DNA from: Lysinibacillus fusiformis
Lineage (GTDB): Bacteria; Bacillota; Bacilli; Bacillales_A; Planococcaceae
Direction of reading: 5' to 3'
NCBI RefSeq assembly: GCF_007362955.1
Contig: NZ_CP041696.1
Coordinates: forward strand, 2,418,001 to 2,482,000
Length of the DNA stretch: 64,000 nt
Position 1 is the stretch's first letter. Each line of letters begins with the position of its first letter. Both the position numbers and the translations under genes were made by a program. Positions 9,685 through 60,400 of this stretch are shown piece by piece. The notes beneath the pieces were generated by a model. The model was not told the origin of the DNA, searched no databases, and worked only from the letters and a program-made list of their open reading frames with translations.

Positions 9685-9705
9685 TCCTGACAACTCCTAT
9701 TTTGT

Positions 9706-9745
9706 AAAAAAAGTATTCAATGGAAAAGTCATTCCCATTGAATAC
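9706..9745 (-). terminator. Terminator between the chemoreceptor gene and the NRPS gene
   Basis: On the minus strand an 11-bp perfect stem (GTATTCAATGG/CCATTGAATAC) is followed by seven Ts. It starts eight bases after the chemoreceptor stop and ends only about eight bases before the NRPS ribosome site, leaving no room for a separate NRPS promoter between them. Confidence 0.8.
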
Positions 9746-9752
9746 CTTTTCA

Positions 9753-45372: not shown

Positions 45373-45424
45373 TTGTATTCCTCCAATCAATAATATTTTT
45401 AGAATGTATGTTCTTTTTTAGATA

Positions 45425-45865
45425 TTAAAATAGCCCCTTAAATTTCAATTTCACCAGGTCAACCGGGATATGATGTAAGGCAGCTATATCGTATATTGTC
45501 AGTTGTTCCGAAATATATTCTTGTACAAGCTCATCTGATATTAATAATTCAACTGCAAATCGATTGGCTTGATGTTCTATTTTATCTACCGAAAAATAAG
45601 TATTGCTTCTCATGAATGGGGTGTCTACATCAGGATGTAATACCACATGTCCAAGTTCGTGGACACGAACAAACTTCTTTTTGTGTTCAGCAAGATTTGA
45701 ATTTATAAAAATATACTTATTTCTTCTAACATAACGATAGAAGCCGTATATTTCTTCATGTAAATTATGCTCTACTATTTGAATATTCATTTGTTGAGCA
45801 ATTACAGAAAAATCATTTGTTTGATGTTTATTAATCAAGTCTTGGACGATTTCTTTTATCCACAT
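45425..45865 (-). CDS. ImmA/IrrE family metallopeptidase
   Basis: A 146-residue zinc peptidase with HELGHVVLHPD (HExxH) and the helical ANRFAVELLISDELVQEYI region typical of ImmA. In ICEBs1 and related prophages ImmA cleaves the neighbouring repressor to allow induction. It lies between the integrase and the repressor in the same direction. I chose ATG 45865, five bases after GGGGTGA. Confidence 0.9.
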   Translation of the reverse strand: MWIKEIVQDLINKHQTNDFSVIAQQMNIQIVEHNLHEEIYGFYRYVRRNKYIFINSNLAEHKKKFVRVHELGHVVLHPDVDTPFMRSNTYFSVDKIEHQANRFAVELLISDELVQEYISEQLTIYDIAALHHIPVDLVKLKFKGLF

Positions 45866-45884
45866 ACTTGTCACCCCTTAATGG

Positions 45885-46325
45885 CTATTCTTCTCTATAT
45901 TTTTTAGGGATATATTTTTTATTGGCAAGTGTGGCTAACCTTTCAGCATGCTCCAAGGCTTCTAAAAGCGACTCGATTGCTTCTTCGCTCATAGGTTCAC
46001 CCATAAAACTTAAGGCGTCACCGTTATCGTCACTGCTTCCTTCTATTAAATCTTTTTTGATTTTCGCCATTCGCTTTCCGATATCACGTTCATCTTTTTC
46101 TGTTAAAACAGGAGTGAGGTTTTCTTTATTTGTATTTCCTACTAAATAATCAATAGAAACTTCATATAACTCAGCCATCTCTTTTAACATTTTAGTATCA
46201 GGATCTCGGTAATTACGTTCATAGCCAGACAGAGCACCATTTGTAACTCCTAGTTTTTTTGCAACTTCTATTTGTGTTAAACCTTTTTTGTTTCTAGCTT
46301 CTTTCAATCTTTCTCCCAAAGCCAT
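45885..46325 (-). CDS. Prophage repressor (Xre family)
   Basis: A 146-residue repressor with an N-terminal HTH (LGERLKEARNKKGLTQIEVAKKLGVTNGALSGYERNYRDP) and a C-terminal region that ends in EHAERLATLANKKYIPKKYREE. With ImmA it forms the ImmR/ImmA type switch. I chose ATG 46325 behind AGAGGTGAG; the longer frame to 46442 has no ribosome site. The opposite promoter (early genes) would be just to the right, where only one small ORF remains. Confidence 0.9.
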   Translation of the reverse strand: MALGERLKEARNKKGLTQIEVAKKLGVTNGALSGYERNYRDPDTKMLKEMAELYEVSIDYLVGNTNKENLTPVLTEKDERDIGKRMAKIKKDLIEGSSDDNGDALSFMGEPMSEEAIESLLEALEHAERLATLANKKYIPKKYREE

Positions 46326-46460
46326 CCTTCTCACCTCTCGCTGAACTGGATGCTGGACGGAAAAAGTAAGAATTGGATTTCTAAAAACATGGGGGTAAGC
46401 CATACCCATATTAAAAACATCAAAGAAAACATCATTAAACAAATGGTGGGGTGAAGATTT

Positions 46461-46586
46461 ATGTGGAAGTTACTAGTCAAAGATATGTACAAGTTTGAAA
46501 TGAATGGTGCGGCACTAATTAGTACAGGCACATTATTAGTATATGGATTAATCAGTTTGATTAAAAACGTAGCAATAGCATTTTGA
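46461..46586 (+). CDS. Small membrane peptide in the prophage early position (41 aa)
   Basis: A 41-residue peptide beginning MWKLLVKDMYKFEMNG and containing one TM helix (ALISTGTLLVYGLISLIKNVAIAF). A clear GTGGGGTGA site lies six bases before the ATG. It sits where cro and early genes would normally stand, divergent from the repressor. No family is recognised. Similar small peptides in prophages may be toxins or remnants. Confidence 0.6.
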   Translation: MWKLLVKDMYKFEMNGAALISTGTLLVYGLISLIKNVAIAF

Positions 46587-46590
46587 ACAT

Positions 46591-46625
46591 AGTTTCAATA
46601 CTTTCAAAAGTTTCAATACTTTCAA
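46591..46625 (+). repeat. Two-copy 17-bp direct repeat
   Basis: AGTTTCAATACTTTCAA occurs twice with an 18-bp period, directly after the 41-aa gene. It could be a regulator site or a short iteron remnant. Confidence 0.8.
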
Positions 46626-47028
46626 CATTAGGTGATAAAGAAGCAAGAGATGTAAACTAAAGGGGAGGTCGGACAGGTAAATCTTTCTTCCCTTGGTATT
46701 TATAAAATACTAATTATTAGGGAAAGACAGACCGACGACCGACCCGCGCTTGGAAGACTAGTTCGGAGCATGACATACATGGCCGGCCCATATTTTTTTA
46801 AGAGATTAGGTATCTAAATAATATAAAGGGCTTAAAGGAGCTGACTAATATGTGAACTTCGTCCACTTTCCAAATATTTTTCAGTCAAACTTACTACAGT
46901 AACAAAGTGCGCGGATACGCACTATAAACAAAAACACAATTCGCTTTACGATAGTAACGTGGTGCAGCTCTACCACGGTTTCAAAAGTGAGCTATCGACA
47001 ATTAAATAGGTTTAACACAATAGACGAG

Positions 47029-47058
47029 CCTTCATCCTGAGCGGGGATGAGGGTTTTT
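47029..47058 (+). terminator. Terminator in the prophage early gap
   Basis: CCTTCATCC/GGATGAGGG stem (one G-U pair) with a short loop, followed by TTTTTATT. Confidence 0.7.
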
Positions 47059-47262
47059 ATTATGCTTTGAAAACTGCATCAAACAGCCATACAAATAATA
47101 CGGATTGGTTTACGGGTGACCAGGATTATCAGGAACATTAGATACCGAGGAGCGCTGACATGTACTAGTAACCGATAGGGCGGAGTTTGGTGTGGTTTTG
47201 AGAGCAGAAAGTTGTTACAATATCCCATCCCTTGGTTTATGATCGGGTGGGAGGTTAAAGTA

Positions 47263-47913
47263 ATGACTAATAAAAAAACAGAAAAAGAAAAAGAAAAAGA
47301 AAATAACTGGACTAATAGAGATTGGTTTTGGTTATTAGGTATTTTAATCGGCATCATAATATTATTGATTGCCTCAATTTTCGCAAAAAGCTTAAAGATA
47401 GAAACGAATTTCAGCATCATTTCTAGCGCTGTATCTATAGCATTAGCTTTAGTGGCGATATTTTTTGCTTTAAAACAAGATAGTGATAATCAAAGAGTGA
47501 ATGATAATGTTTCACGAATATTAAATAATATTGTCTCTGAGATGGGCGTTGTAAAACATCAAGTAAACAAAATTTCGGATAAAGATATAGCAGACATTAA
47601 GGAAGATACAATGGCAGATGTAAAGAAGGACATCGAAAAGGAAAGCTATACTCAAGAAGAAGTGAATGAGATTGTAAAAAAAGCTGTTGATGAATTCAGC
47701 TCAAAATTTAAGGAAATGACCAATAATAATTCAGTTAATAACGATGCTTTAGTTAGTAATCCGGTTTTTATAAGACTAATACAAGAAATTAGACAAGATC
47801 TTATAAATGAGAATGGTGGATATTCTCATAGACAAATTAATAGAGTTTTTGAATCTAAGTTCGGTTATAAATTACCATTAGATGTTATAAATAAAATATT
47901 GAATGGTAGTTAA
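47263..47913 (+). CDS. Two-TM prophage protein with coiled coil
   Basis: A 216-residue protein: a Lys/Glu-rich start, two TM helices (DWFWLLGILIGIIILLIASIFA and the following ISSAVSIALALVAIFFAL), then a long charged helical region that looks like a coiled coil and a small C-terminal helical domain. The family is not recognised. It lies between the early gap and the terminase genes and ends at its own terminator. I chose ATG 47263, eight bases after GGGAGG. A membrane-located cargo (superinfection-type) role is possible but unproven. Confidence 0.6.
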   Translation: MTNKKTEKEKEKENNWTNRDWFWLLGILIGIIILLIASIFAKSLKIETNFSIISSAVSIALALVAIFFALKQDSDNQRVNDNVSRILNNIVSEMGVVKHQVNKISDKDIADIKEDTMADVKKDIEKESYTQEEVNEIVKKAVDEFSSKFKEMTNNNSVNNDALVSNPVFIRLIQEIRQDLINENGGYSHRQINRVFESKFGYKLPLDVINKILNGS

Positions 47914-47940
47914 ACAACTGTTTTTTGCAGTTGTTTTTAT
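47913..47940 (+). terminator. Terminator after the two-TM prophage gene
   Basis: A perfect 8-bp stem (AACAACTG/CAGTTGTT) with a T-rich loop, then TTTATTTT. Confidence 0.8.
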
Positions 47941-48088
47941 TTTGCCCTGAAAAGCCAGTATCGTGCAGACCTCCCCTTGCTGCTAAACAAACGGTACTTG
48001 CTTTTGAGAGTGAAATAATACCTAAAATCACCAGTAGCTCAAGAGGGTATTTTATGCTATTTTTAGAATACTTAATCGAGGTGATTTT

Positions 48089-48250
48089 ATGGAAAAAGAT
48101 ATTGCAGCAACTGATAAATATCCCATGAACCACAAACGACAGCATGACCTACTCATTGATAGAAAAAAAGACTACATTGTGGAAATTACAAAAGAGCAAA
48201 TCGACAGGTTGATTGAGGATATTGATAAAACATTAAGGACGTCCGAGTGA
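48089..48250 (+). CDS. Small hypothetical phage protein (53 aa)
   Basis: A 53-codon frame: MEKDIAATDKYPMNH at the start and a charged helical end (EITKEQIDRLIEDIDKTLRTSE). GAGGTGA lies four bases before the ATG, and a terminator begins within its last codons. Small genes of this type often precede terminase operons. No family is recognised. Confidence 0.55.
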   Translation: MEKDIAATDKYPMNHKRQHDLLIDRKKDYIVEITKEQIDRLIEDIDKTLRTSE

Positions 48251-48262
48251 CGTCTTTTTCTT
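48238..48262 (+). terminator. Terminator before the terminase genes
   Basis: GACGT/ACGTC stem followed by TTTTTCTTTT; short. Confidence 0.6.
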
Positions 48263-48301
48263 TTGACTAAAATAAGCAACTAGCATAATGGGGTGATGCC
48301 A

Positions 48302-48748
48302 TTGATTGAACGTAAATTAAATCCTAAACAACAAGCATTTGCAGACTACTATATTGAGTTAGGGAATGTAGAACAAGCTGCAATAAAGGCTGGATATAGC
48401 AAAGCCTACGCAAGAGGTAATGCTCATAAATTGGTTGCAAATGTGAGCATAAAAAAATATATAGAAAAACGGATGGAAGAGTTAAAGTCTGAGCGTGTAG
48501 CAGATCAGCAAGAGATTATGGAGTATCTAACTTCTATCATGCGTGGTGAACAGACAGAAGAAACACTTCGAGGAATTGGTGAAGGTGCTCAAACAATCGA
48601 TGATATTGATGTTTCAGCAAAGGATCGTATAAAGGCTGCTGAGATGCTTGGTAAGCGTTTTGCAATGTGGACAGACAAGCAAGAAATCAACGCCAACATT
48701 ACTCCAGTCTTTGTTGACGACATTGGTGGTGAAGGAAATGGCAGTTAA
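48302..48748 (+). CDS. Phage terminase small subunit
   Basis: A 148-residue DNA-recognition subunit. LNPKQQAFADYYIELGNVEQAAIKAGYSKAYARGNAHKLV is the HTH of the terminase small-subunit family, followed by an oligomerisation helix region. It would recognise the pac site for packaging. I chose TTG 48302, five bases after GGGGTGA; the GTG and ATG at 48293/48296 fall inside the ribosome site. It overlaps the large-subunit gene by 11 bases. Confidence 0.9.
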   Translation: MIERKLNPKQQAFADYYIELGNVEQAAIKAGYSKAYARGNAHKLVANVSIKKYIEKRMEELKSERVADQQEIMEYLTSIMRGEQTEETLRGIGEGAQTIDDIDVSAKDRIKAAEMLGKRFAMWTDKQEINANITPVFVDDIGGEGNGS

Positions 48749-50006
48749 GAAACTGTCTGAGTTAATACCACCAGCATTTCATTCGGTGTGGCGAGCATCA
48801 ATCAATCCAGAAATACTTAACGTTGTCTGCAAAGGTGGCCGTGGTTCAGGTAAATCATCTGACGTAGCACATATCATTGTCCAATTGCTTATGAGATACG
48901 CTGTAAATGCTGTTGGCATACGTAAAGTAGACAACACTATTGAAACATCCATATTCGAGCAAATGAAATGGGCCATAAACGAACAAGGGGTGTCGCACCT
49001 ATTCAAAATCAATAAGTCGCCTATGCGGATAACTTATATTCCGCGTGGTAACTACATGATTTTCCGTGGTGCACAAGATCCTACGTGTATCAAATCATTA
49101 AAGAGCGCCAACTTTCCATTTGCCCTGGCATGGCTTGAGGAATTAGCAGAGTTTAAAACAGAAGAAGAAGTAACTACCATTACCAACTCACTATTACGTG
49201 GTGAGCTTGGTGATGGTCTTTTTTATAAGTTTTTTTATACGTATAACCCACCGAAAAGAAAACAATCGTGGGTGAATAAGAAGTATGAGAGCTCATTTCA
49301 ACCCGATAACACGTTTGTTCATAAGTCTACTTATCTTGATAACCCATTCATTTCAAAACAGTTTATCGAGGAAGCAGAGGCAGCTAAACAGCGTAATGAA
49401 TTACGTTATCGATGGGAATATATTGGAGAAGCGATAGGTAGTGGTGTTGTGCCGTTTGATAACTTACAGATTGAAAAAGGTTCAATAACAGATGAAATGG
49501 CAGCAGGTTTCGATAACATACGAAATGCTGTCGATTTTGGTTATGCGACTGATCCTTTAGCATTTGTCCGTTGGCATTATGACAAAAAGAAAAATGGTAT
49601 TTATGCAGTTGATGAATTGTATGGTCAAAAGATTAGTAATCGCGAACTTGCAAGGTGGTTACATACCAAAAAGTATCAATCAGATGAAATATATGCTGAT
49701 AGTGCTGAACCTAAGTCAATTGCAGAATTAAAAACTGAACATGACATTAGACGTGTGAAAGGTGCTAAAAAAGGACCCGATAGCGTTCAGTACGGTGAAG
49801 AATGGTTGGATGATTTAGATTTCATTTGCATTGATTCTAAACGTACTCCGAACATCGCACGAGAGTTTGAAAATATTGACTATCAAACAGATAAGGATGG
49901 CAATCCATTACCGCGTTTAGAAGATAAGGATAACCATACAATCGATGCTACACGCTATGCCTTTGAGCGAGATATGAAACGACCTTCAATGTCAGTTTTA
50001 AAGTGA
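48738..50006 (+). CDS. Phage terminase large subunit (PBSX/SPP1 type)
   Basis: A 422-residue packaging ATPase-nuclease. Walker A is KGGRGSGKSSD (about residues 28-38); Walker B is in FALAWLEELAEF; the nuclease acidic residues are in VDFGYATDPLAFVRW, EIYADSAEP and KDNHTIDATRYAFE. It is full length. I chose ATG 48738, which overlaps the small-subunit gene; the earlier frame from 48648 is inside that gene. It still looks functional though the capsid genes are gone. Confidence 0.94.
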   Translation: MAVKKLSELIPPAFHSVWRASINPEILNVVCKGGRGSGKSSDVAHIIVQLLMRYAVNAVGIRKVDNTIETSIFEQMKWAINEQGVSHLFKINKSPMRITYIPRGNYMIFRGAQDPTCIKSLKSANFPFALAWLEELAEFKTEEEVTTITNSLLRGELGDGLFYKFFYTYNPPKRKQSWVNKKYESSFQPDNTFVHKSTYLDNPFISKQFIEEAEAAKQRNELRYRWEYIGEAIGSGVVPFDNLQIEKGSITDEMAAGFDNIRNAVDFGYATDPLAFVRWHYDKKKNGIYAVDELYGQKISNRELARWLHTKKYQSDEIYADSAEPKSIAELKTEHDIRRVKGAKKGPDSVQYGEEWLDDLDFICIDSKRTPNIAREFENIDYQTDKDGNPLPRLEDKDNHTIDATRYAFERDMKRPSMSVLK

Positions 50007-50015
50007 GGTGATTAA

Positions 50016-51464
50016 ATGCTAATTGAGGATTTATTTCGACCGCGTTGGCATGAACAGATGGAAGAGGTGATAAAAAACATGGTTGCTAGTGTGATTAAGA
50101 ATGAGCAAGTCATAATTAATGAGATTAAAGACTGGGAAGAGTCAGACAAACGTAAGTTGATGCTGGTCGGTGAGAAGTATTATAGAGGCAAAATGGACAT
50201 CATTGAGGAAAAGAAACGTGATGCTGCTTGGAAGTCTAACTTAAAGCTGGTACATGGCTACGTAAAGAAGCTTGTTGACCAAAAGGTTGGATATGTTCTT
50301 TCAAAGCAACCTTCTGTAACAAGTGAAAGTGAAGGATATCAGAAAAAGCTAGATGAAATCTTTGATGCTGGAATGATTAATCGTTTACGTAAGGTAGGAA
50401 AAGAGGCTGTTAACAAAGGTGTAGCTTACCTGCATCCGTACTTCAATGAGGATGGAAAGTTTAGTTTCATGCGCTTCCCAGCTGAGCAAATCATACCGTT
50501 TTATGTAGATAGTGAAGGGATGAAAATAGAGTCGTTTTTACGAGTTTACGAAACTGAACATTATGAAGGTACAACGAAAAAGACTTTGAAAAAGATTGAA
50601 CACTATCACAGTGAAGGCATTGACCGATATGTACTAGAAGGTTCAACACTGATCCTTGATATCCCAGCTGGCGGAAAACAGGGTTATCACTTTTTATTAG
50701 GTAAGCAACCGGTGCTGTGGGAGAAGATACCACTTGTCCATTTCAGGTATAACGAAGAAGAGCAGCCGTTGATTGAGCAAATTAAATCACTTATCGATAA
50801 CTACAACACACAAGCATCGACTAATGCTGATGTTCTTGCTGACATTCCGAATTTCATCTACAAGTTGATTAATTACGGCGGTGTGGATTTAGAAGAATTT
50901 ATAAGAGAATTGAATATATATCGAACTGTTAAAACTGATGAAAATGGCGACGTTGATAAGCTTACTGCAGATATCCAAACAGAGGCTAACGAGAAGGAGC
51001 TTGACCGAACGCGCAAAGCTATATATGAATTAGGCCGTGGTGTTGATACTCTCAACGAAAATCTAGGCAATGCATCAGGTGTAGCTCTTAAATTCCGTTA
51101 CAGTGATTTAGATCTGGATTGCAATATTTTGGAGAGTGAGATGCAGTCGAGCATTGAACATATGATGTGGTTCATCACTCACTATTTGCAGATGATTGGT
51201 GAGGGTGATTTTACTGAAGAAAAAGTAAAGTTTGTTTTTAACCGTGACATCATTACAAATGAGATGGAAGCTGTTGAGATGTGTGAGAAGTCTACTGGTG
51301 TACTTGATGACCAAACTGTTCGTGAAAACCATCCATGGTATACACCTGAAGTTGAGGATAGGTTGGCCAAACAGAAAGCTGAAGAACAGAAAGATATAGA
51401 TGAATACCAGGAGGCTCTTGAGAAACAACGACAAGCTCAAACTGGAATGAATAGCGATGAGTAA
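50016..51464 (+). CDS. Phage portal protein (SPP1 Gp6-like)
   Basis: A 482-residue portal, about the usual length. YYRGKMDIIEEKK, KLVHGYVKKLVDQKVGYVLSKQPSV and VALKFRYSDLDLDCNILESEMQ are typical of SPP1-type portals. It forms the dodecameric DNA channel at a capsid vertex. AGTGAGGTG precedes the ATG. Its end overlaps the minor-head gene by eight bases. Confidence 0.94.
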   Translation: MLIEDLFRPRWHEQMEEVIKNMVASVIKNEQVIINEIKDWEESDKRKLMLVGEKYYRGKMDIIEEKKRDAAWKSNLKLVHGYVKKLVDQKVGYVLSKQPSVTSESEGYQKKLDEIFDAGMINRLRKVGKEAVNKGVAYLHPYFNEDGKFSFMRFPAEQIIPFYVDSEGMKIESFLRVYETEHYEGTTKKTLKKIEHYHSEGIDRYVLEGSTLILDIPAGGKQGYHFLLGKQPVLWEKIPLVHFRYNEEEQPLIEQIKSLIDNYNTQASTNADVLADIPNFIYKLINYGGVDLEEFIRELNIYRTVKTDENGDVDKLTADIQTEANEKELDRTRKAIYELGRGVDTLNENLGNASGVALKFRYSDLDLDCNILESEMQSSIEHMMWFITHYLQMIGEGDFTEEKVKFVFNRDIITNEMEAVEMCEKSTGVLDDQTVRENHPWYTPEVEDRLAKQKAEEQKDIDEYQEALEKQRQAQTGMNSDE

Positions 51465-52050
51465 GTATTGGGAGAGTCGTGCGGCACAACATGAGCTAGA
51501 ATCACAGCTTATTGCCAGTAAATACCTTGCCCGTATGGATGAGCAACTACGTATTGCACAGTCAAACATCATACAGCAAATTGAGGTGTTTTATTCTCGT
51601 TATGCGATAGATAATAAAATCTCATATGCAGAAGCGAAAAAGTACTTAACAGCTAAAGAATTAAAGGATTTTCGCAATATCACGTTACAGCAATACAAAG
51701 CTCTTTCGTTAACAGGCAACTCAGAATACGACCGAATATTAGATGCTATCGGTTATCGTGCCCGTATCTCTCGTTTAGAAATGCTACACTTGCAGATTCA
51801 AATGCAGATGCTTGAGTTATACGGTAACACAAATGGTATACAAGCCTATGCTTACACAGGATTGACAGAGGTTTATGAAAATTCCTACTACAAGACGCTG
51901 TACGATATTGCTACATTTACAGCAGTTTATCAACCTGTCACTAAGCTAACAGATGGAATTATGAAAAATGTACTTACCTACAATTGGTCGGGTAAAGATC
52001 ATCTAACAATACCAATATTGCTACGGTTTCTGTATCAGGGAGTACATTGA
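51457..52050 (+). pseudogene. Minor head protein (SPP1 gp7 family), 3'-truncated by deletion
   Basis: The first about 181 residues are a normal SPP1 gp7-type start (SKYWESRAAQHELESQLIASKYLARMDEQLRIAQ, then LTDGIMKNVLTYNWSGKD). After NWSGKD (codon ending 51999) the frame reads 16 residues of unrelated sequence and stops; those bases are the coding sequence of the fibre-like gene in another frame. The normal C-terminal half (MuF domain) is missing. The join marks one end of a large internal prophage deletion. Confidence 0.88.
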
Positions 52051-53369
52051 CGGTAACAGGGAAAGCGATTGGCTCAACATCGATTATTGTCACAGCTAAT
52101 GATGGAAGTTTATCTACATCTCAAACATTTAATGTGACAGTCGCCAATTCAGCACCAACCTATACACAAATACCAGCCCAGGTAACAAAAAAAGACGTAC
52201 CCATCACACTCAATTTAAATAATTACTTTACAGATATTGATAATGACGTCTTATCTTATACAGCCGCATCAGGTAATGCTAATATTGCAACAGTTACCGT
52301 ATCAGGCAATGTATTAACAATTACTGGACATGCTATAGGCAGTGCAACGATTTCAATAACTGCAAGTGATGGTAAGGGCGCTACGGATCAATGGTTTACT
52401 ATAACTGTAACCAATACAGCGCCAACGGTTTCAGTGTCATCACCTTCTGCAAATATGACCCTGTATGAAAATGATTTATTTAACATTACTGGATCAGCAG
52501 CTGATGTGAATGCCAATCAATCAGTTACAATTTACGCCCAGGTGAATTTTGAGCAAAGGATTGTTTTAGGAATAGGACTAAGTAACGCAGCTATTCCGTT
52601 TAACAAACAGCTTAAATTTAAAGCTGGGAAGTTATTTGATGGCGAAACAGCTATCACAGGTAGTTTAACCGATGGTGTACCTCATACGCTTAAAATTTGG
52701 GCGCAAGACGGTGATGGTGGCCAGTCTCCAAGCACAGATCGTGCATTTTACGTTGTACCAAACCGTCCGCCATCTTTGACAGTAGATACCGTACAACCAA
52801 GTGGCATAATTAATACTGATAAATTTAAAATCAGTGGTACAGCAAGTGATCCAGACGGCAATCCTGTTAAAGCCACTTATAGATTAAACGGAGGCAACAG
52901 CGTTGCTTTAGAAATTGTTGAGGGCAAATGGGAATTTGATATTGCTCTAGCGCAGTTACAAGTTGGATCAAATACATTCGTTGTAGAACTAATGGACAGT
53001 TACGATTTTAAGGTTTCTAAAACCATCAAATTAAATAAAAATGAAGTTAACACGCCTATTTTGCAATCCATTGCTCGCTACAAAATCGAGCCACCAAAGG
53101 GATCTGCAAAGGGCGTTTTATTGTGGATTCAAAGGGATGAAGGACTTAATTTAAACATAGAGCTTTCCATGAGATTAAAAGGTGAACAAGAATTGTATGA
53201 AATTCTCACTCCAATGTATACCGTTCCGGTATATGAGGGTGTAGTGGAAGATGAGTTTTATTACGAAACGTTGGAACCAAAGGACAATATTATCCTTAAA
53301 TTAACTACATCAAGGGATGACGTAATAACTGATAATAAAATTTACTTAATCATGGGGGTGCTTGAATAA
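52002..53369 (+). pseudogene. Fibre/tail-associated protein with Ig-like repeats, 5'-truncated
   Basis: An about 455-residue 3' fragment. It begins inside an Ig-like/cadherin-type repeat (NTNIATVSVSGSTLTVTGKAIGSTSIIVTANDG) that is repeated nearly word for word downstream (NANIATVTVSGNVLTITGHAIGSATISITASDG), followed by two more all-beta domains. There is no ribosome site or natural start; the TTG at 52047 is only the first possible codon. It lies in the place of tail fibre genes, before XkdW/XkdX-like genes. The 5' part and all genes between head and fibre are deleted. Confidence 0.82.
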
Positions 53370-53584
53370 TGCAAAGACGTAAGAGATTGCCAGATGGTAC
53401 ATTGGGGGAGCTTGAAAAAATAGGGTCTATTCCTACAACAGCAGAACAAGTTATGTCATTAGGTGAACAATTAGCTCAAGAAAAAGTTAAAAATATTCAA
53501 AAAGACCTCCTTATTAACAATCTTGGTTCACAGTTAACACAATTAAAATTAGATGTTATCTCAATGAAAGGCGGTGGAGAGTGA
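53369..53584 (+). CDS. Small tail-module protein (XkdW-like)
   Basis: A 71-residue protein: MQRRKRLPDGTLGELEKIG, then a helical region ending in a short coiled coil. Size and place, directly before the XkdX gene and overlapping both neighbours by one base, suggest an XkdW-type tail-module protein. Function unknown. Confidence 0.6.
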   Translation: MQRRKRLPDGTLGELEKIGSIPTTAEQVMSLGEQLAQEKVKNIQKDLLINNLGSQLTQLKLDVISMKGGGE

Positions 53585-53739
53585 TGGATTTTTGGCAAAT
53601 TGCTTTTATCTCGAAATGGGTAACAGCCGTACAATTACGAATTGCAGTGAAAACTCAAGCTAATCCATTTGGAGAGATTACTCCTGAGCAGTACAAAGAA
53701 ATTACAAAGCAAGATTTTGAAACGCAGGCAGAAGCTTAG
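53584..53739 (+). CDS. XkdX family phage protein (51 aa)
   Basis: A 51-residue protein: MDFWQIAFISKWVTAVQLRIAV, then an acidic end with ITPEQYKEIT, the typical XkdX pattern. It stands between the tail module and the lysis genes in many Bacillales phages. GGAGAGTG precedes the ATG. Confidence 0.8.
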   Translation: MDFWQIAFISKWVTAVQLRIAVKTQANPFGEITPEQYKEITKQDFETQAEA

Positions 53740-53766
53740 CGTTATTTTTTATGTTTTTCTAGAGTT

Positions 53767-53822
53767 GTGAGAGCAATCGAGATGGGCAACAGTACGAGTT
53801 ACTGATTCTCGAAGCCTCTCAC
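53767..53822 (+). ncRNA. Nested hairpin between tail and lysis modules
   Basis: Three collinear pairings nest: GTGAGAG/CTCTCAC, TCGAGA/TCTCGA and CAGTA/TACTG. The stem-loop lies 40 bases before the BhlA gene. It may be an intrinsic mRNA structure or weak terminator controlling lysis-gene expression; there is no T-run directly after it. Confidence 0.5.
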
Positions 53823-53862
53823 GGCTATTTATTTTAACTTAATAGGGCAGAGGTGAGGACAT

Positions 53863-54249
53863 GTGATATTAACAGCAATCGTAGGGGCAAAGTTGGCAGA
53901 ACAAATGACAAATAGCCCGAATCCGTGGATTTATTTAGCAGGACTTTTATTAATCGGGTTAGGTATTATTGCACGAAAGATTTTTGTCTACATGGTAGAT
54001 ACGCAAAAAGAATTAAAGGCATTAGACGAGGAACATCGTAATGATTCAAAAGAGCGTGAGAAAACACTGTTAGAACAAGTAGATAAATCAAATAATGCTT
54101 TTCGTAGTCTTGCAGAAAGTCAAAAAGAAATGGCAGACGCGCAAAAAGAAATTGTTACCGCAGTACAAAGTTTGAACGGTGGAATGCAATCGTTAGAAAC
54201 ACGCATGGATACAATCGAAAAATATACATTTAAAAAGGAGAGTGCTTAA
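53863..54249 (+). CDS. BhlA/UviB-type holin-like protein
   Basis: A 128-residue protein with one N-terminal TM (NPWIYLAGLLLIGLGIIARKIFVYM, about 20-44) and a charged coiled-coil tail. This is longer than usual BhlA but has the same layout and location before the holin and amidase. GTG 53863 follows GAGGTGAGG; the ATG at 53861 is out of frame. Confidence 0.7.
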   Translation: MILTAIVGAKLAEQMTNSPNPWIYLAGLLLIGLGIIARKIFVYMVDTQKELKALDEEHRNDSKEREKTLLEQVDKSNNAFRSLAESQKEMADAQKEIVTAVQSLNGGMQSLETRMDTIEKYTFKKESA

Positions 54250-54250
54250 T

Positions 54251-54520
54251 ATGGATTTAACAAACATTTTTATCATTGCAATGACAATCGTTGCTATCGT
54301 TTTAGCAGTTTCGGAGGTGCTTAAAAACACATTTAAAATTAACACTCAGTACATGCCAATTACGTCAGTTGTGATTGGTATTTTTATTGGTCTTGTGTTC
54401 TGGCCGTTATCAGAATATCCAGTGTATGTAATGTTGATGGCAGGGTTTATTGCAGGGCTTACAGCATCAGGTACATTCGATTTATTGAAAGCAGCTAAAA
54501 AGGATGGTGAAAAGCTATGA
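54251..54520 (+). CDS. Phage holin
   Basis: An 89-residue membrane protein with three TM helices (IFIIAMTIVAIVLAVSEVL, MPITSVVIGIFIGLVFWPL, YVMLMAGFIAGLTASG). Size and position before the amidase identify it as the holin, which permeabilises the membrane for the endolysin. ATG 54251 is nine bases after AAAAAGGAG. It overlaps the amidase gene by four bases (ATGA). Confidence 0.85.
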   Translation: MDLTNIFIIAMTIVAIVLAVSEVLKNTFKINTQYMPITSVVIGIFIGLVFWPLSEYPVYVMLMAGFIAGLTASGTFDLLKAAKKDGEKL

Positions 54521-55245
54521 GTTATGTTATCGAACAACGCTTAATGTCAAGTTTGCCAAATAAAGCATTACCTGTAGCAAAGTATGTCATCGCTCATGAA
54601 TCAGGTAACGCTAAAAATAACGGTCCAAATGCGCTAGAAAATGAAATTACCTTTATGAATCGTAATAAAGCCAATGCTTTTACTTCTCACTGGGTAGGTG
54701 GCGGAGGGCGTATTGTACAAATAGCACCTATTAATAAAGTGCAATACGGTTGTGGTCCTAAAGGTAACCCACTCAGCTACGCACAAGTGGAATTAGCGCG
54801 TACATCTGACAAGGATCAGTTCAAAAAGGATTATGCTGCTTATATTTGGTTATTGCGCAAACTTGCTAAAGATGCAGGGATACCAATAGTTTTAGACAGT
54901 AGTGGTAACGGCATCAAGTCACACCGATGGATTACTAATAATCTTGGTGGCACTACTCATGTTGATCCGTATTCGTATTTACAAAGCATGGGAATTTCAG
55001 AAGCTCAATTTAAACAGGATATTAAAAATGGAGTACCCACAACACCAACAACATCAATGCAACCAAAGGAGGAAGCAAAAGTGACAAACTCACTAACATC
55101 AACAGCAAAAGAGGATTTTAGAGGATTATTAAAAGAAATGTATAAACAAGGAATTTTAAAGGTGGATCATAGCGAGAAAGTGGATTTTATGACGGACGGA
55201 GAAGCGTTAGGGTTGCTGATTTCAGTGGTTAAACGGGCATTGTAA
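54517..55245 (+). CDS. N-acetylmuramoyl-L-alanine amidase (endolysin)
   Basis: A 242-residue endolysin with an N-terminal Amidase_2/PGRP domain (about 1-165). Zinc-ligand candidates are YVIAHESGN (H about 27) and KSHRWITNNLGGTTHVDPYS at the end of the domain. A linker leads to a short C-terminal region (about 190-242) that may bind the cell wall. It starts within the holin gene by a four-base overlap and closes the lysis module. Confidence 0.92.
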   Translation: MSYVIEQRLMSSLPNKALPVAKYVIAHESGNAKNNGPNALENEITFMNRNKANAFTSHWVGGGGRIVQIAPINKVQYGCGPKGNPLSYAQVELARTSDKDQFKKDYAAYIWLLRKLAKDAGIPIVLDSSGNGIKSHRWITNNLGGTTHVDPYSYLQSMGISEAQFKQDIKNGVPTTPTTSMQPKEEAKVTNSLTSTAKEDFRGLLKEMYKQGILKVDHSEKVDFMTDGEALGLLISVVKRAL

Positions 55246-55257
55246 TTGTAAGTGAAG

Positions 55258-55290
55258 AAGACCAAGATAATCCATGGCTTGGTCTTTATA
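55258..55290 (+). terminator. Terminator after the endolysin gene
   Basis: A perfect 9-bp stem (AAGACCAAG/CTTGGTCTT) with an 11-nt loop; the T-run is short (TTTATA). Confidence 0.65.
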
Positions 55291-55398
55291 AGGACATTGG
55301 TAATAGAACCATTTATGCATTATTATGTTAAAATTTATAACATTTTTTCGAGAGGTAAGTTATAATTGTAACATTAATATTGTAAAGGGGTAGACAAA

Positions 55399-56280
55399 AT
55401 GAGAAACGTTATTTCATTTCTAAATATGAAAGGTGGGGTAGGAAAAACTACCTTATGTAAAGAAATCGGTTATTATTTATCTAGGAACGGTAAAAAAGTA
55501 TTGTTAATTGATGTAGATCCTCAAGGTAACTTAACACAGTCAATTTTCGAAAAGTATAATTATAAACATCACTATGAAACTGAGACTGAAAGAAATAGAA
55601 AATTTCAAGTTTGCACAGCAACAATTAGCAATGTTTTTGACTATACTTCTGTTGTTGAAGGTGTTAAAGAGTCCGATTTTATATTAAAGTTAGATGACTA
55701 TTTATCAATTATACCTGGTGATTTGAATGCGGTATTTTTTGAACGATCTGGAGGTGGGTCAGAAAGTGAGAATGCTATCAAGAATTTTATAGAAGATTTT
55801 AAAATTAGAGAGTCGTACGATTATATATTAATGGATTGTCCACCGACATTCTCCTTTTATACAACTGCTGCTTTGCTAGCTAGTGATTTTTATCTCTCCC
55901 CAATTCATCCTGACTCTTATTCAGTTCTCGGGATTGATTTATTATTCCAAGTAGTAGAAAGGCTAAAAAAAGTATATCGTGATAGATTTAAAACAACACC
56001 ATTAGACCATCTTGGTGTAATCTTCACTAATATACCCAGAGATGCTAGTATTTCAATAGGAATGAGAAAGATGATGGGTGATATAAGGGGTAGTCAAACT
56101 TTAGATGAATTGGAAGTTAATTTTTTTAAAGAAGTATTTCAAACCAATAGAGAATTTAATAAAAGAATTGATTACTTTATAGCTGATTCAAACAGTGATT
56201 ACTCGTACAGTAATTTGAGAAAGATAATTATAGAATTTGATTCTGTCATCACAAATGCTAATGTTGTTTCTCAAATATAA
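55399..56280 (+). CDS. ParA/MinD-type ATPase heading a prophage cargo operon
   Basis: A 293-residue P-loop ATPase with the deviant Walker A of ParA proteins (NMKGGVGKTTLCKEI, residues 9-23), the LLIDVDPQGN motif near 36-45 and YILMDCPPTFSFYT as Walker B. No ParB or parS partner is next to it; instead two unrecognised genes follow closely. A plain plasmid-partition role is therefore doubtful. Base composition is more AT-rich than the lysis genes, suggesting separate acquisition. AAAGGGG precedes the ATG. Confidence 0.85.
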   Translation: MRNVISFLNMKGGVGKTTLCKEIGYYLSRNGKKVLLIDVDPQGNLTQSIFEKYNYKHHYETETERNRKFQVCTATISNVFDYTSVVEGVKESDFILKLDDYLSIIPGDLNAVFFERSGGGSESENAIKNFIEDFKIRESYDYILMDCPPTFSFYTTAALLASDFYLSPIHPDSYSVLGIDLLFQVVERLKKVYRDRFKTTPLDHLGVIFTNIPRDASISIGMRKMMGDIRGSQTLDELEVNFFKEVFQTNREFNKRIDYFIADSNSDYSYSNLRKIIIEFDSVITNANVVSQI

Positions 56281-56292
56281 GGGGTGATAAAT

Positions 56293-56742
56293 ATGGAATT
56301 AAGACCCGAATTAGCACTAAAAGAAAGAGTCTCGACTATTAAAAAGGCTGATAGCGAAGAAAAAATAAGATTTGAAATGTACAGCATAGTAACAAGTTTG
56401 ATATTATCCAAAGAAGTATTTAATAGAAATATAAATATAAAAGAATTTTTGGATGAATGTCACCCTATTTTTAAAACATATGGAGATTACTTATTTGATA
56501 ATAGGACACTCTTATTAGGAAAGATTCTTAGGGAGATGAAAGAACAAGATAAAAAGTTTTTATATCATTTTGCATTAGATATTAAAGAAGAATTAATCAG
56601 ATGTATTGATAAAGAAAATAATGAAGATACTCCTTCGAATGTAAATCAAATAAGTGTAAAAAATAACAAGGGAAAGAATAACAACAACTACACAGATGCT
56701 TTATTTCAGAGATTCAAAAGAGAGGAGGAATCATCTAAATGA
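56293..56742 (+). CDS. Cargo-operon protein 2, unknown
   Basis: A 149-residue, all-helical, charged protein: MELRPELALKERVSTIKKADSEEKIRFEM at the start, LDECHPIFKTYGDYLFDNRTLLLGKILREMKEQDKKF in the middle, and a low-complexity Asn/Lys linker before a short C-terminal helix. No family is recognised. I chose ATG 56293, five bases after GGGGTGA. It ends in a four-base overlap (ATGA) with the third gene, so all three products are made in step. It may be an adaptor for the ATPase. Confidence 0.7.
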   Translation: MELRPELALKERVSTIKKADSEEKIRFEMYSIVTSLILSKEVFNRNINIKEFLDECHPIFKTYGDYLFDNRTLLLGKILREMKEQDKKFLYHFALDIKEELIRCIDKENNEDTPSNVNQISVKNNKGKNNNNYTDALFQRFKREEESSK

Positions 56743-57416
56743 ACGATGTTGATTTTTCTAAATATAATACGTTTATAAATGAATATTTTCCTAATTCAGG
56801 TGTTAGTGGAAGCCCATATCTAGTAAAGATTTATGAAATAGTAAATAGGAATATCCGCTTTATGAAATTAATAAAAAAAATCGATTCAGATTTACACCAA
56901 GAAAGACAAAGATTATATGATGATTTTCATTTATTAAGTTTAAGAATGCTCTATCATTTACCTTCGAATGATGAATTTATAAATAATGTAATAGTTAGAG
57001 CGACTACTGAAAACATTTTGCGTATTGTTCTATCATTTATTGATGAAAAATGTACAGATATTATTTCCATGTCATACAGTTCTATAATGGATAGTCTTGC
57101 TAAAAAAGGTTTTTCGCAAAGGTATCCAGATTTACATAAAAAACTAAGTAATTATTTTGGTAATTATTCGAAAGATGTCCACGGTCAAAACCTTGTTAAA
57201 CTATCTGAAAAAGAGTATCTGGTTTCTATTAGAGAAGAAAATAGCGAAAAACATTTAAATAAATTATATAGTGTATATGACGAGATTTCACTTACATTTA
57301 TTCCATGTATTTTATCGGAAATGGATGTTAAAAAGAAGACAATTCCTTCAGCAACATTAAGTGAAATGTTAAATTTGGTTGGAGAAGAGGTATATTATAA
57401 ATATTTCTCAAGTTAA
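56739..57416 (+). CDS. Cargo-operon protein 3, unknown, with HEPN-like features
   Basis: A 225-residue mainly helical protein. The stretch RYPDLHKKLSNYFGNYSKDVHG (split here as RYPDLH and YSKDVHG) contains an R-x4-H string and a Y-x-x-x-V-H-G ending similar in look to HEPN-type helical domains, which are often RNases in defence systems. This resemblance is tentative. It is translationally coupled to protein 2 and followed by a terminator, so the operon has exactly three genes. Confidence 0.65.
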   Translation: MNDVDFSKYNTFINEYFPNSGVSGSPYLVKIYEIVNRNIRFMKLIKKIDSDLHQERQRLYDDFHLLSLRMLYHLPSNDEFINNVIVRATTENILRIVLSFIDEKCTDIISMSYSSIMDSLAKKGFSQRYPDLHKKLSNYFGNYSKDVHGQNLVKLSEKEYLVSIREENSEKHLNKLYSVYDEISLTFIPCILSEMDVKKKTIPSATLSEMLNLVGEEVYYKYFSS

Positions 57417-57475
57417 TATTACTACTTCAGTGTTGTAATTGATTGATAAATTCAGATAAACAGACGTGAAAAATA

Positions 57476-57513
57476 ACCAGGTACTCACATTAATCAGTGA
57501 CCCTGGTCTTTTT
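57476..57513 (+). terminator. Terminator of the ParA-led operon
   Basis: ACCAGG/CCTGGT outer stem with an inner TCAC/GTGA pairing, followed by CTTTTTTATT. Confidence 0.75.
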
Positions 57514-57515
57514 TA

Positions 57516-57569
57516 TTGCCAAAATAAGAATATACGTTCTATAATTGAATAAAAAAAGAACGAACGTTC
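57516..57569 (+). promoter_or_regulatory. SOS-type promoter with LexA box before the yolD-like gene
   Basis: TTGCCA (57516-57521) and TATAAT (57540-57545) form a sigma-A promoter with an 18-bp spacer. GAACGAACGTTC (57558-57569) downstream matches the Gram-positive LexA/DinR core GAAC-N4-GTTC, so SOS control is likely. Confidence 0.75.
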
Positions 57570-57586
57570 TTGTTTGGAGTGGTTTG

Positions 57587-57922
57587 ATGTTACGTGATCG
57601 AGGGAATATGAAATGGACAGCAATGATGCTGCCAGAACATTTAACAATGATAAAGGCGTGGAGAGAAGAGCAATTTGCTGAGGCGCCGCGTGAACTGGTG
57701 GAATGGGAACTAGAGGAATTACAGCGAAAAATCCAACAAGTCACTACGATGAAAAAACTTGTAACACTCACGTTATGGGATAATAACACGTTGCATGATG
57801 AGACAGGTTTAATTACTGCAACGGATACGTATAAGAAAGAATTGCTGTTAGAAACCGAAACGGCCATTAAAAGAATATTCGATAAAATCCAAAATGCAGA
57901 ATTAGTTGACGCTGATGATTAA
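57587..57922 (+). CDS. YolD-like family protein
   Basis: A 111-residue protein of the YolD-like family: LRDRGNMKWTAMMLPEHLTMIKAWREEQ is the typical start. In B. subtilis phage SPbeta yolD lies beside the Y-family polymerase gene uvrX and is DNA-damage-induced; it has been proposed to act with that polymerase. Here no uvrX follows. I chose ATG 57587 behind GGAGTGG; the longer frame from 57545 would start within the promoter and LexA box. Confidence 0.82.
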   Translation: MLRDRGNMKWTAMMLPEHLTMIKAWREEQFAEAPRELVEWELEELQRKIQQVTTMKKLVTLTLWDNNTLHDETGLITATDTYKKELLLETETAIKRIFDKIQNAELVDADD

Positions 57923-58256
57923 AGCTGATGAACGTGAACTTTTACATCAATATATTCTATTAGATATGGCTATTAGGTCACTGCAACAGGACTATTCTGC
58001 TCTTGAAAACTTGAAAATATCTAAAGTTTTTTTTCCGTTTGTCGATGATTTGCTCAAAAATCTACGTAATGATTTTTATAATAAAAAGCGATTGTTAGGT
58101 CAGAAGAAAATTAGAGTAGTTAAATGGGTAAAAATAAGTGAGTATTTAAGTGAGGTTACAATCGCTACAAATGGAGAAGATGTTGTACTTCAATATGCTA
58201 AACAAGCTCTTAAAACACAAGTAGAGCAACTATTAGTCAGTAACATGAATAAATGA
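57915..58256 (+). CDS. Hypothetical protein coupled to the YolD-like gene
   Basis: A 113-residue protein, helical at first (ADERELLHQYILLDMAIRSLQQDYSALE), then a basic C-terminal region (KKRLLGQKKIRVVKWVKISEYLSEV). It overlaps the YolD-like gene by eight bases. Genes of this size often accompany yolD in Bacillales, but I cannot name the family. Confidence 0.6.
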   Translation: MIKADERELLHQYILLDMAIRSLQQDYSALENLKISKVFFPFVDDLLKNLRNDFYNKKRLLGQKKIRVVKWVKISEYLSEVTIATNGEDVVLQYAKQALKTQVEQLLVSNMNK

Positions 58257-58257
58257 C

Positions 58258-58294
58258 CAGGACTCATTATTTATGAGAGGCCTGTTTTTTGTGC
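58258..58294 (+). terminator. Terminator after the YolD pair
   Basis: CAGG/CCTG and CTCAT/ATGAG nested pairing followed by TTTTTTG. Confidence 0.8.
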
Positions 58295-58302
58295 AAGTAA
58301 AA

Positions 58303-58330
58303 AGCCACTCGGTGAGTGACTAATTTTTTT
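58303..58330 (-). terminator. Terminator for the minus-strand lipoprotein gene
   Basis: On the minus strand GTCACTC-ACC-GAGTGGC (one G-U pair) is followed by TTTTTAC. The plus strand also has a T-run after the stem. Confidence 0.75.
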
Positions 58331-59093
58331 TATTTAATGATGGATGCTCATCGTAACTATTAACTACATCCGGGAAATTTTCTGTTAAGAAGTTATCCCA
58401 TTTAATTTTATCTAATGTCGCTTTATCAATACTAAATTTCATAACTTCACTATCTTTTTCATTCCCGTATGTATCAACCAGAGGTAACTGCCAATCAACA
58501 TTAATTCGTTTAATATTATTAACTTTTGAAAGTGGTTCTAAAATTTTAATAGAATCCATCCACATACCGCGTTTCATCATATCTAATGTGAAATTGTCTG
58601 AAGCGTTTAATGTTAGATTTAAACTGCTGTCTGTTGCTTCTATTTTTTCAATTACTTTTTTCTTTGAGTTATTATTTTTACCTAGCTTTTCAGTGATAAT
58701 TTTTTCTACTTCATCTGTTGAAACTTTGTTCCTTATATCTGAGATGTTTTGTTGAATTTTTTCTTTTTGTTCTTTTGATAATTCTTCTCTTTTTGTAATT
58801 AAGCCATGTTCCATAATAATATCTGCTTTTTCATCATTAAAAATAATAGTTACTGAAGATTTGGTATCAATACCATCTTCTCCGTCGAAATTTAACGAAA
58901 CTAATTTCTCGTCAAATTGATTTTCTTTGTCATTTTTAGCTTTACCACCGAAAATTCCTTTTACTTCATCATAACTCATACCCTTTTCAATTTGTTTAAA
59001 TTCATCAGGTGTTACTGTACCTACTTCTTCTTCACCACATCCAGCCAATCCTAAACTTAATACTAGTGCAGCGCTAAAAGTTAATTTCTTCAA
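58320..59093 (-). CDS. Prophage-encoded lipoprotein with DUF3862/SmpA-like domain
   Basis: A 257-residue lipoprotein: the signal peptide ends in LGLAGC (cysteine about 19). The region FKQIEKGMSYDEVKGIFGGKAK (about 31-52) is the short SmpA/OmlA-like or DUF3862 unit found in many Gram-positive lipoproteins; the rest is charged and has no known domain. I chose TTG 59093, nine bases after GGAGG. It is the only minus-strand cargo gene; surface lipoproteins in this place can act in lysogenic conversion or superinfection exclusion, which is inference. Confidence 0.75.
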   Translation of the reverse strand: MKKLTFSAALVLSLGLAGCGEEEVGTVTPDEFKQIEKGMSYDEVKGIFGGKAKNDKENQFDEKLVSLNFDGEDGIDTKSSVTIIFNDEKADIIMEHGLITKREELSKEQKEKIQQNISDIRNKVSTDEVEKIITEKLGKNNNSKKKVIEKIEATDSSLNLTLNASDNFTLDMMKRGMWMDSIKILEPLSKVNNIKRINVDWQLPLVDTYGNEKDSEVMKFSIDKATLDKIKWDNFLTENFPDVVNSYDEHPSLNKKN

Positions 59094-59236
59094 AATTATT
59101 TCCTCCATTTCCGTATATTACTAATATATCAATCATTCTAGTTGTTGTCAGCATTGTTTTCGGCGCCTGAGTATAGTGAACAACATATATTTATAGTCCC
59201 TCGATTAGAATTTGTAAAATCCACAAATACTAAAGT

Positions 59237-59440
59237 ATGGACATCGAGACATTAAGCAGTAAAGCAACTTACTACTTTGAAACAGTTAAAACTAATTGTG
59301 ACTTCGTAAAAATCATCCAGTATAAAGGAGAGAAGGGTAATTATTCATTTTATGGATTTTATAAGTGCGTGCGAGGGATTGGGTTAAAGAAAGTTATTTT
59401 AACTCCTGACGGCGATTTTGTGGACTTTATCTCGCTGTAA
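59237..59440 (+). CDS. Small hypothetical protein (67 aa)
   Basis: A 67-residue protein: DIETLSSKATYYFETVKTNCDFVKIIQYKG, then a beta-rich GNYSFYGFYKCVRGIGLKKVILTPDGDFVDF. The composition looks coding, but no good ribosome site is visible before the ATG. No family recognised; it might be a remnant of a longer gene. Confidence 0.4.
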   Translation: MDIETLSSKATYYFETVKTNCDFVKIIQYKGEKGNYSFYGFYKCVRGIGLKKVILTPDGDFVDFISL

Positions 59441-59569
59441 TTTGTAGAACTTTGTCGTAAATTGTAGATACTTCGACAAAATTTTTCATTTGGGCTTGTA
59501 ACCCATTTAAAAATAATGCTTCCAATGCTACCATTAAAGTAACAAATATAAAGAACTCTTGTTCTTAAT

Positions 59570-59740
59570 AAAATGTAAAGGTGGTGCTACTAAATAATCA
59601 GTATTAATAAAGATGAAAATAAAAAAACCACATCTCAAGGTGCAACTTGAAATGCGGTAATAATTCGAGTGACATCCACCCATAAACTAAATGTATTGTA
59701 CCATTTCATCGGTCCAATTAGAAGTGGATGTCCTCATGTA
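59570..59740. other. Decayed type I toxin-antitoxin locus (holin-like toxin type)
   Basis: The plus strand has AAAGGTGG (59577-59584) and, after a stop, a frame IISINKDENKKTTSQGAT (59594-59650) that looks like only the hydrophilic tail of a small holin-like toxin; the hydrophobic N-terminus is missing. The minus strand has an extended -10 (TGGTACAAT, 59703-59695) and a 13-bp hairpin (59627-59658) with a T-run, a short antisense RNA of about 70 bases. The inverted repeat GACATCCAC/GTGGATGTC (59671-59732) brackets its promoter. Confidence 0.5.
59627..59658 (-). terminator. Terminator of the putative antisense RNA
   Basis: On the minus strand ACCGCATTTCAAG/CTTGAGATGTGGT pairs over 13 bp (G-U allowed) with a six-base loop and seven Ts. 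Confidence 0.8.
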
Positions 59741-59754
59741 GAGGGAGATAAATT

Positions 59755-60084
59755 ATGCAAAATCAAACTATTGTCCAAAAAGCATTTATTAAAATCATGG
59801 AAGAACGAGTTTTCCAAGTAGCTTGGGAGAAAGCTAAAGCAGATGAATTATATGTTAAAGCTATTAAGGAAAAAGAAATAGCAATAGATTTATTAAGAGA
59901 TTCACTTAAAAATGGTAAACAAAAAAATCTTTTGGATGATTTAGAATCAGTTTGGGAATTTGTAGACAGAGTAATGCAAGAATACGCATACAGACAAGGT
60001 TTACAGGATAGCCAGATGATACATAAGGAACTTAATACTTATGGTATTGATGTTTCAAAGGAAAGCATGGACGTAATGTTGTAA
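59755..60084 (+). CDS. Small hypothetical prophage protein (109 aa)
   Basis: A 109-residue, wholly helical, acidic protein: VQKAFIKIMEERVFQVAWEKAKADELYVKAIKEKE. GAGGGAG lies seven bases before the ATG, a good site. No family recognised. It is the last gene before the presumed right end of the prophage. Confidence 0.6.
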   Translation: MQNQTIVQKAFIKIMEERVFQVAWEKAKADELYVKAIKEKEIAIDLLRDSLKNGKQKNLLDDLESVWEFVDRVMQEYAYRQGLQDSQMIHKELNTYGIDVSKESMDVML

Positions 60085-60400
60085 ATAAATTTAACTTAAA
60101 CAGTTAAGGAATAATTAAATAATTGCTTGTTATTTTTTTAATAACTAACAAAAAAGTAACGAAAAAAAATAACACAGCGAAGTTACGCGAACTAAATCTC
60201 CTTATTTTAAAAATAGAGTAACAAAAAAATGTCTTAATAAAGGCATGAAAAGGTACACGAAATCGATTCCATCATGGAGGGCATGAAGCCTTTTTATTGA
60301 AAAAAAGCTACTTTTATCGAGATAAAGATAAAAGTAGTTTTTTCATTTTTTAAAGAGATAATTCATATAATGCAGGGCATAAGGCAAAGGGGGAACGACA
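60085..60400. other. Gap at the prophage right edge
   Basis: About 320 bp without a gene. It contains a GGC/GCC hairpin near 60240-60296 and a strong terminator at 60308-60345. The right attachment site should lie here. Confidence 0.5.
60308..60345. terminator. Strong terminator before the ATPase gene
   Basis: A perfect 11-bp stem (CTACTTTTATC/GATAAAAGTAG) with an 8-nt loop, with As before it and TTTTTTC after it. Confidence 0.85.

Follow-up and report, generated by a model that had tools for sequence, protein, structure and literature searches.

RemAIN comprises the products of STM14_3218-3220 of prophage Gifsy-1 in S. Typhimurium 14028s (Sargen and Helaine 2024). The published lengths of these genes are 840 bp for STM14_3218, 309 bp for STM14_3219 and 663 bp for STM14_3220, and remAIN is reported to block the lytic cycles of phages, both co-resident and incoming. 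In the introduction of a further paper, RemAIN appears as a tRNA-targeting system and RemN as a HEPN nuclease (PMC12409363). Activation of RtcR in the SOS response requires the same three-gene region; deleting the region lowered this activation 50-fold, supply in trans did not restore it, and mitomycin C brought no rise in the expression of STM14_3217-3220 while the neighbouring genes went up over 32-fold (PMC9879122). After DNA damage, tRNAs are cut in the anticodon loop, and RtcR binds the 5' fragments that carry a terminal cyclic phosphate (PMC7790460). Kurasz et al. list STM14_3219 and STM14_3220 without a predicted function and assign HEPN to another gene (3211). The reported absence of a remAIN effect on phage FO1 in strain LT2 is evidence against a simple picture of RemAIN action.

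A ParA-type ATPase also stands beside a HEPN-type protein in the ParA/Soj + MAE_18760-HEPN dyad (Anantharaman et al. 2013), which differs from the operon studied here, by its published description, in having two genes and the canonical Rx4-6H motif. GiPD474, a ParA-like ATPase of the Gifsy immunity region with shown phage resistance, is in contrast a single gene, and Bosma et al. 2025 report no homology with remAIN. The RloC-like ABC-ATPase/HEPN proteins of the PrrC/RloC group are described as RNases gated by an NTPase; their NTPase is an ABC ATPase, whereas our operon encodes a separate ATPase of the ParA fold.

We analyzed a stretch of 64,000 nucleotides from Lysinibacillus fusiformis (hereafter the window), in which a preliminary description had singled out a three-gene operon, headed by a ParA-type ATPase, as the best candidate for an undescribed defence or superinfection-exclusion system. 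That description picked out a genuine system and was right in its guess at the kind, but the system is not undescribed, RemAIN having been published in 2024.

Layout of the operon and its host prophage

The three genes are located at 55399-57416 on the forward strand, tightly packed, 3' of an endolysin-like gene and flanked by two hairpins. The first gene (55399-56280, +) encodes protein 1, a RemA-like ParA-type ATPase of 293 aa with an intact KGGVGKTT. The second gene (56293-56742, +), the counterpart of STM14_3219, encodes protein 2, which is small and helical and carries a basic linker ahead of a short C-terminal helix; ATG 56293 is its likelier start, judged from the upstream AAGGGGTG, and GTG 56284 is also possible. 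The third gene (56739-57416, +), which overlaps the second by four bases, encodes protein 3, an all-helical R-x3-E...H protein of 225 aa and a RemN-like predicted RNase. The open reading frames therefore bear out the operon as it had been outlined, i.e., three genes after the endolysin with an intact P-loop motif and a four-base overlap, and the terminator noticed at its end was recovered as well. This terminator-like hairpin, followed by a T run (57476-57507, +), closes the trio, and the fold of 57466-57522 reached -15.9 kcal/mol, with equally stable folds in 0 of 200 shuffles. A weak terminator-like hairpin with a short T run (55257-55287, +; -12.5 kcal/mol, equally stable shuffles 2 of 200) lies between the endolysin and the trio. 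A simple terminator scan of the window listed neither of the two. These hairpins on both sides of the trio fit the mitomycin C-independent expression of STM14_3217-3220. The operon is AT-rich, with a GC content of 28.3% compared to 36.7% for the rest of the prophage (44158-55245).

A prophage remnant occupies 44158-60286. Reading the translations by eye, we labelled an integrase (44158-45390, -) as well as ORFs resembling a repressor, a terminase, a portal protein, holins and an endolysin; by these labels, location in a prophage is common to the window trio and RemAIN. The prophage looks like a remnant because no major capsid, tail tube or tape-measure gene was recognisable by eye in the translations of 51457-53369. 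The ORF at 52047-53369 (440 aa) begins with Ig-like repeats and is closely joined to a shortened head-protein-like ORF (51457-52050); this junction may be the site where structural genes were deleted. The attachment core may be a 13-bp direct repeat found at 44050 and 60274.

Relation to RemAIN and conservation of the three genes

The comparison with RemAIN was made through L042, a Gifsy-like Salmonella contig whose trio has ORFs of 840 and 663 bp and a middle gene that measures 309 bp from GTG 6902. The downstream flank of this contig matches that of Gifsy-1 (RecE/RecT) at 90% identity with 93% covered, and its upstream flank (O/P region) is 56% covered by SEN34 at 98% and 20% covered by Gifsy-1 at 96%. 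From these lengths and flanks, and not from a sequence comparison, we infer that the L042 trio stands for STM14_3218-3220. A profile of the window clade, built from 24 hand-picked sequences, matched L042 proteins 1, 2 and 3 at 5.3e-63, 1.2e-15 and 3.8e-5, respectively. Profile-profile comparison with a set of 16 mostly gammaproteobacterial-type trios gave 99.3% for protein 2 (P 4e-20) and 96.6% for protein 3 (P 7e-10). BLASTP of the window proteins against L042 gave 40% identity for the ATPase (E 4e-47) and E 0.001 for protein 2, and was not significant for protein 3 (E 6.4); L042 falls in the far third of the 108 neighbours of the window (tree-distance ranks 75, 85 and 87) and is thus very distant. 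As judged by gene order and profile homology to L042, the window trio is a distant RemAIN homologue, and it therefore probably serves in competition between phages, as a weapon of an established type. Both have the order of a ParA-type ATPase, a small protein and a protein of about 220 aa, each matched by profile through L042. They differ in that the window trio occupies the slot after the endolysin in a Bacillota prophage remnant, whereas RemAIN lies in the repressor/recombination region, and in that position 92 of protein 3, H in L042, is N in the window.

Besides the window, 168 loci were collected, 162 of them by the ATPase and 6 by protein 2. The ATPase-retrieved loci consisted of the best 80 of 135 viral-contig relatives, the best 80 of 335 genome relatives, found with an alignment of trio ATPases, and 2 phage records. 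The same gene order with tight spacing, recognized as two ORFs of fitting size after the ATPase, was present at 159 of these 168 loci with the closest ATPases, with median intergenic gaps of -10 and 0 bases; the co-occurrence survey proposed in the preliminary description thus found the trio conserved beyond this prophage. One profile takes in protein 3 at 159 of the 159 loci and protein 2 at 152, the iteration of the protein profile among those candidate loci favouring inclusion. Of the best 80 of 135 viral contigs, 79 contained a match to protein 2 and 76 one to protein 3. Since both best-80 lists hold the closest ATPases, these counts make no statement on more distant ParA proteins. The nine loci that were not counted had either no ParA ORF (L055, L088, L111 and L132) or lacked the two following ORFs (L130, L140, L160, L163 and L168). 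At seven loci (L138, L148, L153, L164, L166, L167 and L170) the ATPase and protein 3 were matched and the middle gene was unmatched by the protein-2 profile, which suggests a divergent or replaced second component there.

The gene-tree distances of the three genes correlate with each other (r 0.74, 0.82 and 0.66; n=109; top shuffled value 0.17). The shuffling leaves shared ancestry in, and the correlation therefore speaks for co-inheritance, not for contact; the single complex of all three products put forward in the preliminary description is hypothetical. The three genes are one widespread, co-inherited unit that is not local to the window. We take the organism names among the trio genomes, some of which are metagenome bins, to represent Bacillota, Pseudomonadota, Bacteroidota, Fusobacteriota, Acidobacteriota and Hydrogenedentota. 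Counting the window's own genome, protein 2 was present in 5 of 32 genomes of the genus and in at least 3 of 398 genomes of the phylum, the latter being a lower bound because the best 10 candidates per genome were scored. Labelled by eye, the four other genus copies differ in their setting: one (L241) adjoins a transposase-like gene and an integrase fragment, another (L242) lies upstream of terminase-like genes and a third (L243) is close to an integrase-like fragment; the copy in L244 (about 9332-10425) is degenerate, with protein 2 and a shortened protein 3 and without ParA. No match was obtained by tblastn with window protein 3 among annotated phages and plasmids, by tblastn with window protein 2 among annotated phages, or by megablast with the trios of two relatives among E. 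coli genomes, and a first scan of genome contigs with protein 3 alone returned zero relatives.

The ATPase, its small partner and the predicted active site of protein 3

Protein 1 matched Pfam AAA_31 (6e-37) and phrog_164 (6e-46), and its P-loop and other ParA residues are invariant in a 35-sequence alignment. Protein 2 matched phrog_6264, a family without functional annotation, in 35 of 35 members, and has N49, Y69 and R74 as near-invariant residues. Its AlphaFold2 model (mean pLDDT 83.3) contains a disordered linker, with pLDDT <50 at 121-129, that is net positive in 93 of 128 relatives and leads to a short C-terminal helix; 94 of the 128 have W within the last 15 residues. Foldseek of protein 2 against the PDB returned nothing at E <= 0.001, and sequence profiles of proteins 2 and 3 found nothing in the PDB. 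The remark that no ParB is visible agrees with Pfam, PADLOC, PHROGs and NCBIfam, where none was listed for proteins 2 and 3; these proteins are likewise without a listed replication or structural family match, and the reading of the operon as prophage cargo holds. Protein 2 could be a tether or activator of the ATPase, or an inhibitor, possibly the 'I' of RemAIN.

The AlphaFold2 model of protein 3 is all-helical (mean pLDDT 91.9). Foldseek returned nothing at E <= 0.001 in the PDB or BFVD, and HepT made up four of the first six PDB chains (E 0.22-0.50, low TM-scores). Across 134 protein 3 sequences, R87 is conserved in 134, E91 in 132 and H148 in 133, position 140 is aromatic in 133, and position 144 is S or C in 130. 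R87, E91 and H148 occur jointly in 131 of the 134 (the R-x3-E...H set), an enzyme-like invariant set. The HEPN likeness of protein 3 had been proposed from the motifs RYPDLH and YSKDVHG. The histidine of YSKDVHG is indeed conserved (H in 133/134), whereas that of RYPDLH is H in 1/134, namely in the window itself, and RYPDLH fails as HEPN evidence. The canonical HEPN motif Rx4-6H, i.e., R at -5 to -7 of H148, is found in 17 of 133 sequences and is missing from window protein 3; we therefore rejected an assignment of protein 3 to HEPN through this motif, which most members lack. An alternative R-x4-H reading (R87, H92) applies to 17 of 134 sequences, L042 among them, and the window has N at 92. 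The acidic motif E-x3-[KR], which is described for many HEPN families (PMC3710099), is present in 121 of 134.

Profile-profile comparison with protein 3 gave 0.1% for HepT (28 sequences from 30 loci) and 0.3% for MAE_28990 (PF18737; 6 sequences), and both relations were rejected. The system models of PADLOC-DB 2.0.0 gave weak partial matches to the window proteins, none of them qualifying; among 34 protein 3 members, the same database yielded four families with one member each, the best being HEC-02B at 2.6e-4. DUF5677 (PF18928) was the sole family with a profile signal for protein 3 (71.6%, P 3.5e-5, 43 columns with 134 rows); the reverse comparison gave 54.5%, and a smaller alignment of 34 rows gave 2.8%. 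None of 34 protein 3 members matched PF18928 over the curated Pfam cut-off. From the DUF5677 loci L171-L205, 33 were fetched, 8 were dropped (one near-duplicate and fragments) and 25 were used, among which 23 carry the pattern R-x3-[ED] and Y-x7-H in likeness to protein 3. DUF5677 may be an unrecognised RNase family.

The likeness to RloC-like proteins lies in R-x3-E and a later H. The label 'RloC-like' is ours and follows PF13166 and Rad50 matches together with the RloC architecture; the triad of PrrC is R320/E324/H356. Six residues are invariant across eight RloC-like C-termini; they include R-x3-E and a downstream H, which in the alignment line up with those of protein 3. The profile comparison of these C-termini with protein 3 was not significant (1.9%, P 0.026; controls P 0.22-0.54). 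The set was drawn from plasmid records, and beyond the query itself none was found in 398 genomes or in viral contigs.

Proposed function, alternatives and genomic setting

Because of its homology to RemAIN, the trio is best read as an anti-phage system in which an ATPase regulates a HEPN-type RNase; this part of the preliminary description stands by that homology, and not by RYPDLH or Rx4-6H. We consider it likely that the trio belongs to the RemAIN family as one of its Bacillota members, i.e., an ATPase-gated, tRNA-cutting prophage-competition system. The operon would be expressed in the lysogen from its own unit, and the ATPase and the small protein would keep protein 3 inactive, the role of protein 2 being a guess. 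When a rival or co-resident phage grows lytically, this might then, again as a guess, alter the nucleotide state or the binding of the ATPase and free protein 3. The freed protein would cut tRNA anticodon loops through R87/E91/H148 without metal and leave 2',3'-cyclic phosphate ends, and translation would halt before phage is made, although this order of events is guessed.

The HEPN-like features of protein 3 would also suit a ParA/HEPN toxin-antitoxin that keeps the prophage by addiction, with the ATPase as antitoxin, protein 3 as RNase toxin and no phage sensing, as Anantharaman et al. postulated for the ParA/Soj + MAE_18760-HEPN dyad. However, the third gene is conserved, a profile relation to MAE_28990-type HEPN, the family compared, was undetectable (0.3%), and RemAIN is reported to act on phages; we regard addiction as unlikely. 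Membership of protein 1 in the ParA family and its invariant Walker residues could instead indicate a partition or positioning system, in which protein 2 would be an adaptor like ParB or McdB, its basic linker and C-terminal helix perhaps stimulating the ParA, and protein 3 would be the cargo. This is improbable, given that a ParB match is absent in Pfam, PADLOC, PHROGs and NCBIfam, that many loci adjoin a recombinase (within 1.5 kb downstream at 25 of 114), which points to integrated elements, and that protein 3 carries an enzyme-like invariant set. The three open frames and the retained near-invariant residues make it very improbable that the trio is an inactive relic of a decayed prophage, even though its prophage, judged by eye, has the appearance of a remnant and the genus relative L244 has a degenerate copy without ParA.

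If the trio is a RemAIN-type competition system, as we favour, the anonymous prophage operon is now tied to a published one. Many phage lineages carry these three genes, as do genomes whose names span six phyla, and where annotation is visible most of them are annotated without function. A broader generalization is offered tentatively, as a proposal that we hold somewhat doubtful: RemAIN could be the first studied case of a very broad family of ParA-gated RNases in at least six phyla with the site R-x3-E...Y-x3-[SC]-x3-H instead of Rx4-6H, the unstudied DUF5677 proteins could be relatives that share this chemistry and are single-gene or ABC-independent, and ParA could work as a sensor or a switch in a tRNA-cutting inter-phage weapon. 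Three residues (R87, E91 and H148) and one pairing are named as testable, and the question whether a ParA-type ATPase, usually a positioning motor, can act as an RNase switch is made direct.

The survey of genomic settings, which the preliminary description had proposed, found mainly prophage and integrase contexts, and no classical defence-island enrichment was seen among the neighbour matches listed. A recombinase was present in the examined flank at 45 of 114 non-redundant loci, within 1.5 kb downstream at 25 and within 1.5 kb upstream at 11. Scanning of 150 of the 202 neighbour proteins gave mostly integrases and repressors (Phage_integrase 15, HTH_3 9, Amidase_2 3), together with a few methyltransferases, mad2, capH and other matches. 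Six phage marker families, taken from a few phages and so missing many, were absent from the examined flank at 45 of 68 non-redundant genome loci; with so few markers, prophage residence is established for many loci and not for every one. At one Flavobacterium locus (L112, 2465-7336), an HTH gene comes after the trio, and so do two genes labelled by eye as a cytosine methyltransferase and a restriction-type gene.
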